A DNA stretch of 36,530 bases from Thermoflexales bacterium (GTDB taxonomy: Bacteria; Chloroflexota; Anaerolineae; B4-G1; DUEL01), in assembly GCA_014360895.1 (NCBI GenBank), contig JACIWQ010000022.1, positions 1 to 36,530 of the forward strand. Direction: 5' to 3'. This document shows positions 13,683 through 36,529 of this stretch, one piece after another. Below the pieces are notes generated by a model. The model was not told where the DNA came from. It saw only the letters and a program-made list of their open reading frames with translations, and ran no database searches. The number at the start of each line of letters is the position of its first letter. Positions within the stretch are counted from its first letter, which is position 1. Position numbers and translations under genes: made by a program.

Positions 13683-13689
13683 TCGTCAG

Positions 13690-13726
13690 AGAGGTGACAG
13701 TCACCTGGGAGGGGACTGTCACCTCT
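13690..13726. terminator. Hairpin between convergent genes, probable shared terminator
   Basis: AGAGGTGACAGTC (13690-13702) and GACTGTCACCTCT (13714-13726) form a perfect 13-bp stem with an 11-nt loop. The plus side is followed by only a short T run (TTTAA). The hairpin includes the TGA stop (13719-13721) of the minus-strand threonine synthase-like gene. The left arm also contains a smaller palindrome AGGTGAC-A-GTCACCT, related to one at 36295-36311. Confidence 0.6.
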
Positions 13727-14807
13727 TTAACCCACTGCCGGTCAGCATAACCACCACCGTCCCCTCCAGATGGGGCCGGAGGCGGTCCAGCGCGGCGACG
13801 GCCAGGGCGGAGGTCGGCTCCACGAAGAAGCCCTGATGGGCCAGCTGCTGCCGGGCCGCCAGCGTTTCTTCGTCCGCCACCGCCAGAAGGGCCCCACCGC
13901 TTCTGCGGACGGCCTCCAGGATGGCCCGCCCGCGCACCGGCACCGCGATCCGTACCCCCTCCGCGACCGTCTCTCCCTCCGGGACGGGCAGGGGGTCCGC
14001 CGCGCCGGCCTCCCATGCCGCCGCCAGGGGCGCACAGGCGGCCGCCTGGACCCCGAAGAGGCGCGGCATCCGTCCCCCCAGTTCGGCAAACCCCTGCGCC
14101 AGCCCCAGGAGCAAACTCCCATGCCCCACCGGAAGGACGACCGCGTCCGGGAGACGGCCCCCCAGTTGCTCCCAGATTTCGTACGCGGCGGTCTTCATCC
14201 CGGCGTGGATGAGGGGATGGTAGACGTGGCTGGCATAGACGGCGCCCGCAGCGGCGGCCTCCAGCACCGCCTGGGCAGCCTGACTGCGGGGGCCGGGCAC
14301 GGCGACCAGTTCGGCCCCGTAGGCGGCAATCTGGGCTTGCTTCCCGGGGGAGGCATGGGCCGGGACGTAGATGGCGGCGCGGATGCCCGCCCGGGCCGCG
14401 TAGGCCGCCAGACTGCACCCGGCATTGCCGGAGGAATCCTCCACCACCTGCCCCACTCCTGCCGCCGCCAGCGCCGTCACCAACACCGTCGTCCCCCGGT
14501 CCTTAAAAGAGCCGGTCGGGTTGAGGAACTCGCACTTCAGGAAGACGGGCATGTCCCCCCAGCGGGCCTCCACCAGAGGCGTCATCCCCTCCCCCAGGGT
14601 GACCGGGGGGACGTCCGGCGGGACGGGCAGGGCATGCCGGTAGCGCCAGAGGGTGAAGTCCTCCCGGCGGATTCGGGATGGGTCCAGTACGGGCGCGTCG
14701 CGCAGGTCCAGCACCCCGCCGCAATCGCAACGGACGCGCGTGGGATCAGGGGAATACGTTTGCTGGCAACGAGAGCAGTAGAAGTCCACTTTCTCTATCC
14801 CAGGCAA
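13719..14807 (-). CDS. thrC: Threonine synthase-like PLP enzyme
   Basis: Threonine synthase converts O-phosphohomoserine to threonine. The 362-residue protein has an N-terminal zinc ribbon (C11, C14, C27, C29), then the fold II PLP motif NPTGSFKDRG with Lys102, the substrate loop EDSSGNAGCSLAAYAARAG, and a C-terminal LTGSGLK. This layout matches the short, ribbon-bearing threonine synthases. The start is uncertain: TTG at 14807 is 4 nt after the decarboxylase stop, while GTG at 14789 is preceded by GGGAT. No homoserine kinase or homoserine dehydrogenase gene is nearby, so a related beta/gamma-elimination activity remains possible. It is downstream of, and tightly spaced with, another PLP enzyme gene. 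Confidence 0.82.
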   Translation of the reverse strand: MPGIEKVDFYCSRCQQTYSPDPTRVRCDCGGVLDLRDAPVLDPSRIRREDFTLWRYRHALPVPPDVPPVTLGEGMTPLVEARWGDMPVFLKCEFLNPTGSFKDRGTTVLVTALAAAGVGQVVEDSSGNAGCSLAAYAARAGIRAAIYVPAHASPGKQAQIAAYGAELVAVPGPRSQAAQAVLEAAAAGAVYASHVYHPLIHAGMKTAAYEIWEQLGGRLPDAVVLPVGHGSLLLGLAQGFAELGGRMPRLFGVQAAACAPLAAAWEAGAADPLPVPEGETVAEGVRIAVPVRGRAILEAVRRSGGALLAVADEETLAARQQLAHQGFFVEPTSALAVAALDRLRPHLEGTVVVMLTGSGLKR

Positions 14808-26357: not shown

Positions 26358-26609
26358 ATGGGGAAGAAATCCCGTCGTCGGCGTGGGGCATCCGGCCCCC
26401 GCCTCTCCGCTGCCCAACTGGTTCAGCCAGGGGAGCAGGCCGCCGCGCTGGCTCCCGCTGTGGCCCCTCAGGCCCCAAAGGCCTCCGCGCGCGCCTTTCG
26501 GGACCTGCGAGAGGAATACCCCTATGTGGTGGCCGATCTGAAGCGGATTGCCATTATTGCGGCGGTGATGCTGGTCCTGCTGCTGGGGCTGGCCTTTCTG
26601 CTGGTGTAA
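26358..26609 (+). CDS. Small tail-anchored membrane protein, function unknown
   Basis: An 83-residue product starting MGKKSRRRRG. It has a basic N-terminus, an Ala/Pro-rich middle, then REEYPYVVADLKRIAIIAA and a single hydrophobic C-terminal segment ending LLLGLAFLLV. The C-terminal anchor with nothing after it fits a tail-anchored protein. GGAGGAGG precedes the ATG by 5 nt and there is a good promoter upstream, so it is probably a real gene. The motif Y-x-YVV-x-DL-x-RI before the membrane helix resembles small proteins I have seen in Chloroflexota, but no name applies. A strong terminator lies about 200 nt downstream. Confidence 0.75.
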   Translation: MGKKSRRRRGASGPRLSAAQLVQPGEQAAALAPAVAPQAPKASARAFRDLREEYPYVVADLKRIAIIAAVMLVLLLGLAFLLV

Positions 26610-26654
26610 ACGCGAGGTGGTCTCCCTCCGGAGTGTTGTCGGCGAAAGGACAAC

Positions 26655-26742
26655 GGGAATCCACCGCAAAGGACGCAAAGAGCGCAAAGGGAATCGGGAA
26701 CAGGCGTTTGTTCTTTACGTCCTTTGCGCTCTTTGCGGTTCA
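26655..26742. repeat. Inverted pair of CGCAAAGAGCGCAAAGG phrases
   Basis: Left copy CCGCAAAGGACGCAAAGAGC followed by GCAAAGG, right copy CCTTTGCGCTCTTTGCGG. The pair could form a long hairpin of about 17 bp with a 35-nt loop. A third version (CCCTTTGCGTTCTTTGCGG) lies near 30.65 kb. Confidence 0.65.
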
Positions 26743-26806
26743 AAATGAGCCGCCGCTGGGCATCAACGCCGGGGAGAAACGGCCCAACGCGACCAGGGAG
26801 AAAACT

Positions 26807-26882
26807 GGGGTTTGCGGCGGGCGGTGCCTCGGGCCATAGCCCTTCGCTCTCCGCCGCAAACCCCCATTCTTTTTCTTTTTTA
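26807..26882. terminator. Strong bidirectional rho-independent terminator
   Basis: GGGGTTTGCGGCGG (26807-26820) pairs perfectly with CCGCCGCAAACCCC (26851-26864) around a 30-nt loop that holds a smaller GGGC-CATA-GCCC hairpin. The plus side is followed by a long T-rich run (26869-26882). The minus side is followed by AGTTTTCTC. It would stop transcription from both the sortase/small-protein side and the LysW-like side. The first 18 bases recur at 36512-36529. Confidence 0.75.
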
Positions 26883-26889
26883 TGGAGGC

Positions 26890-27050
26890 AACAGGCAAAC
26901 TTCAGCTATCGGAGTCTGAGACCGCCAGCCCTCAGCGCCGGGTGCTGGGCCACCCTCGCGAAAGGATGGCCTCTCCGCTTCACCAGTCAGACGTTCAGTG
27001 CCCGGGAAACGGGTAAACGATGCGGCGATCCCGGTCGCCGCAAAAGTCGC
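26890..27050. other. Candidate structured RNA segment, strand undecided
   Basis: Hairpins visible are GGCCACCC (26948-26955) with GGATGGCC (26964-26971) and one mismatch; CCCG-GGAAA-CGGG (27001-27013); and GCGGCGA (27022-27028) with TCGCCGC (27035-27041), perfect. Long-range pairs CGGAG (26910-26914)/CTCCG (26973-26977) and GTCTGA (26914-26919)/TCAGAC (26987-26992) could close a multi-branched core. It matches no riboswitch or RNA family I could recall. If the flanking terminator works, it would be the 3' UTR of the minus-strand LysW-like mRNA. Confidence 0.3.
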
Positions 27051-27065
27051 CCCACCACCTGGCGA

Positions 27066-27314
27066 TTACCATTCCTCTTCTTCGTCTTCCAGGTCCTCGT
27101 CAAAGAGGTCCTCTTCCTCCCATTCCTCCTCTTCTTCCCACTCCTCCAGTTCCTCTTCCTCCAGGTCTTCGTAGTCAAAGACGTATTCCAGTTCCAGCGG
27201 ATTCAGGCTGACGACCTCCAGGAGGGCCCCGCATTCCTCGCAGTACAGGCGGTCGTAGAGAGCGACGTCCGGCGGGATGGGAAGAATGGTGTTGCATTCT
27301 GGACAGCGTACCAT
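27066..27314 (-). CDS. LysW-like zinc ribbon with extended acidic Glu/Trp tail
   Basis: The first 45 residues match LysW, the amino-group carrier of the LysW-dependent lysine/arginine pathway: MVRCPECNTILPIP, then CEECGALLEVVSLNPLELE. Both CxxC pairs are present. LysW proteins are about 54 residues and end EDWGE, the final Glu being the attachment point. This protein is 82 residues; after the ribbon it has a run of acidic residues with Trp repeats (ELEEW, EEEEEW) and ends in EEEEW. The terminal GE is absent and the last residue is Trp. No LysX ligase gene is in the window. It may be a degenerate or repurposed carrier. GGAGG sits 5 nt before the ATG, and a good promoter lies upstream. It diverges from rpsB. 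Confidence 0.8.
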   Translation of the reverse strand: MVRCPECNTILPIPPDVALYDRLYCEECGALLEVVSLNPLELEYVFDYEDLEEEELEEWEEEEEWEEEDLFDEDLEDEEEEW

Positions 27315-27389
27315 TTTTCCTCCTTTAAAGCGGCCTGAGTATGAACCCGCCCGAGGGGCGAACCGCAGCCACTGACTCCGACCGGCTTT

Positions 27390-27418
27390 ATTATGCCATT
27401 TTCTGTTTTCTTCGTCAA
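27390..27418 (-). promoter_or_regulatory. Promoter of the LysW-like gene
   Basis: On the minus strand TTGACG (27418-27413), 17-bp spacer, CATAAT (27395-27390). About 75 nt before the ATG. It is back-to-back with the rpsB promoter. Confidence 0.65.
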
Positions 27419-34113: not shown

Positions 34114-35508
34114 ATGTACGAAGAAGAGATACCGATGATGAAAGATACGGACGAGGAGGTAGCGGCTCCCACCCCCCGGGGGGAAGAAACACCGCGTGAG
34201 GTGGTCCCGGGTGTTCCGGCCGACATCCTGGAGATGGGGGTTCTGGAAGAGTGGACGCTCTCCGACCTTCGGGAACTGGCCCGCAAAATGGGGGTCTCCG
34301 GCTACAGCCGGCTGAAGAAAGAGGACCTGATCCTGCGCATCCTCCAGGCAAAGGCGGAGCGAGAGGGGCTGACCTTCCGGGGAGGCGTGCTGGAGATTAT
34401 ACCTGATGAAGGGGTGGGCTTCCTGCGGGGGCCCAATTATCTCCCCGGCCCGGAAGACGTCTACGTCTCCCAGTCCCAAATCCGGCGCTTCGGCCTGCGC
34501 AATGGCGACCTGGTCATCGGGCAGGTCCGGCCGCCGAAGGAGACCGAGCGGTGGTACAGCTTGCTGCGGGTGGAGACGGTCAACGGGATGGACCCGGAAC
34601 AGGCCAAGTTGCGCCCCCGCTTTGAGAAACTGACGCCCATCTTCCCCACCCGGCGGCTGGTCATTGAGACGGACCGGCACAACCTGACCACCCGTCTTCT
34701 CAGCCTGATCGCGCCTATCGGGAAGGGGCAGCGCGGCCTGATTGTCTCGCCGCCGAAGGCCGGAAAGACCACCGTCCTCAAGCACATCGCCAACGGCATC
34801 ACCGCCAACCATCCGGAGGTCCATCTGATGGTCGTCCTCATCGGCGAACGGCCGGAGGAGGTCACCGATATGGACCGGTCGGTGGAGGCAGAGGTCATCA
34901 GTTCCACCTTTGATGAACCGGTCCAGAACCACACCAAAGTGGCGGAGATGGCGCTGGAGCGGGCCAAGCGGCTGGTGGAGTGCAAGAAAGACGTGGTCAT
35001 CCTGCTGGATAGCATCACCCGGCTGGCGCGGGCGTACAACCTGGTCGTCCAGCCCAGCGGGCGTACCCTCTCCGGAGGTCTGGACCCGGCGGCCCTCTAC
35101 CCGCCCAAGAGTTTCTTCGGCGCGGCCCGGAACCTGGAAGAAGGCGGGAGTCTCACCATCATCGCCACCTGTCTGGTGGATACCGGCAGCCGGATGGACG
35201 ATATGATTTACGAGGAGTTCAAGGGGACGGGCAACATGGAACTCCACCTCAGCCGGCGGCTGCAGGAACGGCGCATCTTCCCCGCCTTTGACATTGAACG
35301 GTCGGGCACCCGCCGGGAGGAGTTGCTCCTGGAGCCGGATACGCTGCAGAAGGTCTGGCTGATGCGCAAGATGATCGCCCAGATGGTGGCGCCGCCGCCC
35401 GCCGGGGCCGGGTACGACCTGACCACGGTGACCGAGTCGGTGCTGCAGCACCTGGCCCGCACGCGCAACAACCGGGAGTTCCTGGACACGCTGAAAGAAG
35501 CGATGTAG
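34114..35508 (+). CDS. rho: Transcription termination factor Rho
   Basis: Rho is a hexameric RNA helicase. The 464-residue protein has an N-terminal helical domain ([23 protein letters not shown]), the RNA-binding cold-shock domain with [31 protein letters not shown] split over about residues 102-132, Walker A PPKAGKTT at 213-220 (Lys218), Walker [17 protein letters not shown], and the Q- and R-loop segment [20 protein letters not shown]. The first 35 residues are acidic and unlike the family norm. AGGAGG lies 7 nt before the ATG. The upstream 171-nt region shows no clear promoter. It converges on the hydrolase gene with only 13 nt between. Confidence 0.97.
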
Positions 35509-35521
35509 CGCGAGATTCTTC

Positions 35522-36280
35522 TTACGCTATAACCTCCAACCACTCCCGTATCGCGCCTGCCACCTGGTCCGGCTTTTCCAGCATCACCATGTGACCGGCC
35601 CCTTCCACCAGGACAAAGCGCGCGCCCGGGATGCGCTCGGCCAGCCACTGCCCGAACTTGGGCGGCGTCATCCGGTCCTCCGAGCCGGTGATGACCAGCG
35701 TCGGTGCCGCGATTTCCCCCACCCGCTCGCGGATGTCAAAGCGGTCGCATGCGGCGAAGTCCCCCCAAACGACCTGGGGATCCACGCGCGCCATCATCTG
35801 GCGGCCCCGGGCGACCATCGCGGGGTCGGCCTCCGGGCCCCATGCCCATTCGGTGATCAGGGCCACCGTCCCGCGCGCATCCTGCAAAATCCCGTCCAGA
35901 AGGACGGGCGCCACTCGCAACCGCGCGCCGGTACCCACCAGCACCAGTCCAGCGACCCGCTCGGGGGCCACCAGGGCCGTCATCTGGGCGATGGCGCCCC
36001 CCATAGAATGCCCCACCAGTATCCCGCGCGTGACCCCGATAGCGTCCATAAAGCGAACGACGTCGGCGGCGTAGTCCTCTATGCGCTCCCGGCCGGGCCC
36101 CTCCGACCGTCCATGCCCGGGCAGGTCCACCGCATAGACGGTGGCGCCGGGCAGGCGGCGCAGCGCGGCAGGCCAGTGGAGGTGGTTCCCACCTGCCCCG
36201 TGGATCAGGATCAGGGCGGGCCCTCCCCGCCCATTGACGGTGTAGAAAAGTGCCTGGTCTCCGATCTGAGCGAACGGCAT
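35522..36280 (-). CDS. Alpha/beta hydrolase
   Basis: A 252-residue hydrolase of the alpha/beta fold, in the 3-oxoadipate enol-lactonase / haloperoxidase-like group. The oxyanion strand [14 protein letters not shown] and [12 protein letters not shown] lead to the nucleophile GHSMGG (Ser92); the acid is Asp202 ([11 protein letters not shown]) and the base His230 ([12 protein letters not shown]). All three catalytic residues are in place. No signal peptide. GAGGAGG precedes the ATG. A palindrome (36295-36311) lies just upstream and might be an operator. The substrate is unknown. Confidence 0.9.
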
Positions 36281-36511: not shown

Positions 36512-36529
36512 GGGGTTTGCGGCGGGCGG
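36512..36529. repeat. Second copy of the GGGGTTTGCGGCGGGCGG element, cut by the window edge
   Basis: These 18 bases are identical to 26807-26824, the left arm of the bidirectional terminator. The rest of this copy is beyond the window, so whether it also forms a terminator cannot be seen. Confidence 0.6.

Follow-up and report, generated by a model that had tools for sequence, protein, structure and literature searches.

The spacer behind a LysW-like gene in a Thermoflexales bacterium as a probable 3' UTR and transcript end between convergent genes

The window analysed here is the whole stretch of 36,530 nucleotides from a Thermoflexales bacterium (JACIWQ010000022.1), which is contig 135 of a 3.57-Mb genome. 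Our subject is the interval 26890-27050, located between two convergent genes (Table 1). One of them encodes a LysW-like zinc-ribbon protein, matched by the Pfam family PF21344 (Zn_ribbon_LysW; score 37.6 bits, cut-off 27), and rpsB is the neighbour on its other side. The opposing small gene sits behind a sortase gene, and its product matches no Pfam family at E ≤ 0.01. The LysW-like gene is present in all seven genomes of the genus, the window's included, and in all seven the two genes are convergent neighbours. The initial annotation described the interval as a spacer between a terminator and the LysW-like gene, which is borne out by the Zn_ribbon_LysW match and by the terminator at 26807-26881. 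It also placed the interval in the 3' UTR of lysW if read on the minus strand and behind a terminator if read on the plus strand, in agreement with the coordinates of gene and terminator.

Table 1. Genes, signals and predicted structures around the interval 26890-27050 (positions in the window)
Feature	Position	Strand	Remarks
Small gene	26361-26609	plus	82 aa; convergent with lysW; protein ends in a single hydrophobic stretch
Dispersed inverted repeat copy, GCAAAGGACGCAAAG type	26655-26745		In the same intergenic region
Strong terminator of the convergent small gene	26807-26881	plus	Stem 26807-26864, U-rich run 26867-26881
Rest of the spacer	26890-26947		Convincing congener counterpart absent
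Longer-range arm	26903-26947	minus	Predicted fold
H3, local hairpin	26948-26971	minus	10 pairs; predicted fold of the window's genome
H2, hairpin	26975-27012	minus	11 pairs, one bulged base, 15-nt loop; predicted fold
H1, hairpin	27021-27042	minus	8 pairs; starts at the 24th nt past the lysW stop; predicted fold
LysW-like zinc-ribbon gene	27066-27314	minus	82 aa; tail very acidic
Candidate lysW promoter, TTGACG-17-CATAAT	27390-27418	minus	10 of 12 consensus matches

The candidate at 27390-27418 is likely the promoter of the LysW-like gene. Alignment by eye finds TTGACG...CATAAT upstream of lysW in six of the seven genus genomes, the window's among them, and TTGACA...TAATAT in its place in G005. 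The 5' leader of lysW (27315-27392, minus strand) can be aligned in five of the seven as an outer stem with an inner hairpin; G005 and G006 were excluded from this alignment (A2) as unalignable by eye. There, 90.7% of the cells are paired, a value as high in 5 of 500 shuffles, and slid versions reach at most 49.3%. A two-sided change is observed in one pair only, equalled in 415 of 500 shuffles, and the stability of the window's own leader is not beyond chance (z 0.68).

The terminator of the small gene is a G+C-rich hairpin with a 15-pair outer stem, followed on the plus strand by TTCTTTTTCTTTTTT, which qualifies it as a terminator. It was missed by our pattern scan, probably because the loop limit of the scan is 8. 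The fold of 26800-26890 has z values of -4.22 on the plus and -4.13 on the minus strand. Read on the minus strand, the hairpin 26807-26864 is followed by AGTTTTCT, and it could also stop lysW transcripts. This hairpin and the neighbouring 26655-26745 belong to repeated sequence. The GCAAAGGACGCAAAG-type repeat has 58 matches in its own genome at E ≤ 0.01, including the two from the window. The hairpin arm GGGGTTTGCGGCG lies at 26807-26819 and at 36512-36524; it has 54 genome matches with at most one mismatch (control 12), three exact ones being in the window. Several exact copies are found at contig ends, including the window's right end, where the repeat probably broke the assembly. The motif CTGAAGTTTGGCC is enriched in the genus, with 77 matches at up to 3 mismatches in the seven genomes (7 for the reversed pattern); the window's CTGAAGTTTGGCC-like stretch at the edge of the interval is not among the 77.

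The initial annotation further proposed local hairpins that together make a folded RNA roughly 150 nt long. The hairpins stand, as the predicted minus-strand fold contains H1, H2, H3 and a longer-range arm, but an RNA of this length is not supported, its z values being near chance and no such unit being clearly conserved. For 26890-27050, z is -1.47 on the plus strand (reached by 29 of 300 shuffles) and -1.80 on the minus strand (13 of 300). The core 26905-27016 gives 0.24 on the plus (180 of 300) and -1.02 on the minus strand (42 of 300), and 26902-27045, the best of the extents tried, gives -1.83 (9 of 200) and -2.46 (2 of 200), respectively. When H1 is cut (26891-27036), the values are 0.39 and -0.34; H1 thus supplies most of the folding signal. 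As a control, 452 tiles of 161 nt were folded from this window (226 positions on both strands), and a z of -1.47 is reached by 57 tiles, -1.80 by 35 and -2.50 by 12. The folding of the interval is therefore close to chance and not beyond shuffles. The strongest fold among these tiles is 35421-35581 (z -4.45; 35421-35560 gives -3.14), where two convergent ORFs, one of them presumably rho-like, have their stop codons; it may thus be a shared transcript end. The translation of the ORF 34114-35508 is one that we take to be Rho-like. Another segment, 13686-13830, forms a very stable terminator-like hairpin, AGAGAGGTGACAGTC...GACTGTCACCTCTTT, with z -3.50.

Shortly past the lysW stop codon, the predicted minus-strand fold has G+C-rich hairpins, H1 and then H2. 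Directly after H1 there is only TCGTTTACCCGTTTCCC; a proper T/U run is absent behind both H1 and H2, neither of which is listed as a terminator by the pattern scan. The same scan of 26890-27050 finds a promoter-like site on neither strand.

The initial annotation had matched the interval to no known RNA class. This is confirmed with Rfam 15, in which no family reaches its gathering score anywhere in the window. A permissive scan of 26600-27330 (E up to 10) returned 15 matches, none of them reaching the cut-off. Ten are microRNA models, mostly on two long hairpins outside the interval, and the best match touching the interval is a microRNA model that scores 19.8 bits, its cut-off being 100. With all matches below threshold, a known RNA class was rejected for 26890-27050, and the silence of Rfam is likely due to ordinary transcript-end and spacer sequence.

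A comparison of the spacer within the genus shows large differences in length. It measures 456 nt in the window and 450, 319, 318, 395, 208 and 144 nt in the six congeners, and the congener spacers are mostly unalignable with the window's. A DNA search of 60 relatives with 26886-27060 gave no same-place congener match among the matches listed. Among these listed matches, G011 has the best one beyond the own site, with 31 bases and E 1.7e-4, the six congeners have best E values of 0.02-0.22, and 55 of the 60 genomes show some match at E ≤ 1. We also considered 26886-27060 as a dispersed repeat and rejected this, the best other own-genome match listed being 31 bases with E 0.012. In G010, a 19-base piece (query 115-133 of 26886-27060) matches 12 places at 95% among the matches listed, mostly near contig starts; this is some repeat of that genome, and its likeness to the spacer is probably chance. 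A search for further close genomes added one distant match only, a Terriglobia record with 44% identity.

Local alignment of 27050-26890 with the six congener spacers (300 shuffles) gave p 0.003 for G002, spanning H1 to the 5' arm of H2. G006 follows with p 0.013, but at its far hairpin; G001 has 0.063 and the other three exceed 0.6. For 27016-26890 alone, p is 0.017 in G001, 0.023 in G002, at the very 5' arm of H2, and more than 0.6 in the other four. The part behind the H2 5' arm to 26890 was aligned with all six congeners under two kinds of shuffles, 1000 each. It yields 24 aligned bases in G001 (p 0.015 and 0.036), a 10-base stretch at an unrelated place in G002 (0.097 and 0.076) and values of at least 0.49 in the other four. 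Since six comparisons were made, these p values amount to no convincing homology for the spacer beyond the H2 arm. A convincing counterpart of H3 is likewise absent in the six congeners, both in the alignments and in the covariance search.

The part common to congeners is 26972-27045 on the minus strand, beginning 21 nt past the lysW stop. It was aligned for three of the seven genus genomes (A3) and for two (A4), the others being unalignable by eye. All 11 pairs of H2 are kept in G002, with one two-sided change (G-C to A-U) and two one-sided changes (G-U to G-C and U-G to U-A, once each). Between the window's genome and G002, the H2 arms are identical at 18 of 22 positions and the loop at 5 of 15. 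With the 15 changes placed randomly over the 38 columns, P is 0.002 for four or fewer of them in the arms. For the retention of all 11 pairs by chance despite four arm changes, P is 0.006-0.17, depending on the transition share, and a pair-count shuffle control (250 of 500) is powerless with two sequences. In the covariance-model match of G001, three of the 11 H2 pairs are non-standard and the loop is longer; H2 is intact in two of the seven genus genomes. We also tried an H2 of G001 closed by a distant GAAGCGG partner about 100 nt off. It was rejected: three such sites exist, and 620 of 1000 shuffles offer at least one.

H1 keeps its position but not its register. By eye, G001 has 10 perfect pairs elsewhere in register and G002 has an interrupted stem. 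Of the eight pairs of the window's register, five are kept in G002. An outer extension of H1 in the G001 register, with its two two-sided changes, was dismissed because 385 of 500 shuffles reach the same. A consensus fold of the three sequences of A3, which gives yet another pairing and whose covariation term is just -0.1, was set aside as well. The compensatory changes that the initial annotation proposed to look for in homologous spacers are thus found for H2 in G002, but not for H1 or the rest of the interval; a single two-sided change occurs, in one stem and one relative, H1 being out of register. With one stem passing in one relative and the rest lacking a convincing counterpart, there is no support for a unit as long as 150 nt. 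What the alignments support, if weakly, is a putative pair of hairpins close to the lysW stop, spanning about 70 nt of the 3' UTR in two species.

Two covariance models were built, both for the minus strand only, the plus strand being outside their scope. The first, based on the single sequence and its minus-strand fold, was run on 60 genomes. It scores its own site with 183.6 bits, the same place in G002 with 22.9 bits (E 0.03), G042 with 22.5 and G021 with 20.3 bits. Since G042 nearly equals G002, it is the location and not the score that makes the G002 match credible. The covariance search that had been suggested for this spacer gives a best outside match that is syntenic but barely over noise. 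Run unfiltered on 13 lysW loci, the same model gives 21.1 bits in G002 and 10.0 bits for the correct-place match in G001, which ranks under several wrong-place or wrong-strand matches. The second model, built on 75 stop-proximal columns of the window's genome and G002, was run on 41 genomes. Its best match beyond the two training sites is the same place in G001 with 23.9 bits (E 0.017), and the runner-up is on contig 300 of G004 with 23.7 bits (E 0.020). This candidate H1-H2 copy in G004 was taken as chance, since a same-strand ORF of 360 aa contains it. At E ≤ 1, the second model returns, besides its two training sites and the syntenic match in G001, only weak matches in G004, G009 and G026. 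In the window, it finds nothing beyond its own site above 13.6 bits. At the lysW loci of the remaining four congeners, no right-place match at E ≤ 3 resembles both hairpins; the best match, in G006, has 17.4 bits and falls on the far hairpin of the G006 spacer.

In a wider comparison, we took the 13 best-scoring of 30 lysW loci and compared the best single hairpin within 100 nt past the stop with 20 shuffles. In nine of these 13 loci, none of the shuffles equals the hairpin. It is equalled in the window's genome (6 of 20), in G004 (4 of 20), in G003 (3 of 20) and marginally in G038 (1 of 20). In the six order-level relatives among the 13 loci, the best hairpin begins 15-39 nt past the lysW stop. 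A hairpin past lysW is thus common in the group, and the window's is among the weaker ones.

Based on these results, 26890-27050 is an ordinary, fast-changing spacer between convergent genes. It is probably the 3' UTR of the LysW-like gene together with the transcript end, with H1 and H2 most likely helping to end the message. This explanation is supported by the gene pair that is kept in all seven genomes while its spacer varies from 144 to 456 nt, and by the hairpins past lysW that shuffles do not equal in nine of 13 loci. It is supported also by the two covariance searches, each of which, outside its training sequences, ranks the same place of a congener on top (G002 in the first, G001 in the second), by H2 arms that are more conserved than their loop, by the strong far hairpin with its U-rich run and by the lack of an Rfam match. 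Against it stand an own stop hairpin that is unexceptional, the missing U run at H1 and H2, the restriction of H2 to two of seven genomes and covariance matches that barely beat the next ones (22.9 vs 22.5 bits and 23.9 vs 23.7 bits).

What the data establish is the layout of the region, the retention of H2 in one relative and the absence of clear conservation in the rest; the existence of a lysW transcript, its end point and a role of H1 and H2 in termination are inferred from the sequence. Transcription would start at the promoter around 27390-27418 on the minus strand and cross the gene. RNA polymerase would then reach H1 and H2 at nt 24-91 past the stop codon, where the hairpins most likely slow or stop it, or serve as a mark and protection for the message's 3' end. 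As they have no U run, they may terminate alone, act with Rho or merely shield the 3' end. Polymerases that continue would reach the strong hairpin 26807-26864, which would be the terminator for the opposing gene too. The sequence from H2 to this hairpin would be free to drift, to gain repeats and to be lost.

It is unlikely, though of some weight, that the spacer is neutral throughout, with H1, H2 and the other hairpins as by-products of G+C-rich sequence and recent descent and with 26807-26864 alone ending both transcripts. The z values inside the normal spread of the window would fit this, as would an H1 register that varies by species, an H2 intact in two of seven genomes, the own hairpin equalled by 6 of 20 shuffles and syntenic covariance matches that barely exceed noise. 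However, the H2 arms vary less than the loop (P 0.002), the pairing survives every arm change, and G002 and G001 are ranked top at the same place outside the training sequences. Rather improbable is a lineage-specific element of the lysW 3' UTR made of H1 and H2, which would be selected in a few close species and would serve message stability or ending, or be released as a small RNA. It is very unlikely that the lysW mRNA yields a small RNA from its 3' UTR or carries a structured RNA with a regulatory role, whether excised or acting in cis. In favour are the compactness of H1 and H2, which together span about 70 nt, their partial retention in two species, including one two-sided change, and the description of bacterial 3' UTRs as a source of regulatory RNAs (PMC7821165). 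However, the unit is not intact in five of the seven genus genomes, the second model finds in 41 genomes at E ≤ 1 only its training sites, G001 and three weak matches, and the scan gives a promoter-like site in the interval on neither strand. An RNA of the plus strand past the terminator is extremely unlikely: this strand folds too (-59.3 vs -66.9 kcal/mol on the minus strand for 26902-27045), but it is behind the strong terminator 26807-26881, a promoter-like site was not found in the interval, and its z values of 0.39 to -1.83 across the extents are weaker than those of the minus strand.

If the transcript-end explanation is right, little follows from it beyond another convergent spacer with a hairpin pair at a 3' end. 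The locus can be used as a control, since several hairpins per 150 nt are normal in a G+C-rich genome and the comparison of relatives alone separates the kept stem H2 from the others. If H1 and H2 end transcripts without a U run, this would be informative on termination in this group.

Among known systems, RAGATH-31 (RF03101) gives a weak match adjacent to the interval (26668-26725, 24.4 bits). This score is far under the cut-off of 71.8, and the match lies outside 26890-27050 within the dispersed repeat. With bacterial regulatory RNAs derived from 3' UTRs, H1 and H2 share a folded structure within a 3' UTR. They differ in lacking wide conservation and in that a second copy was not found in 41 genomes. 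From intrinsic (Rho-independent) terminators and 3'-end stem-loops between convergent genes, the region differs in having H1 and H2 without a proper U run, in the tandem arrangement of the hairpins and in the long variable spacer before the strong hairpin. It resembles them in a hairpin soon after the stop codon, in a far strong hairpin with a U run able to serve both strands and in the variable sequence of the stems.
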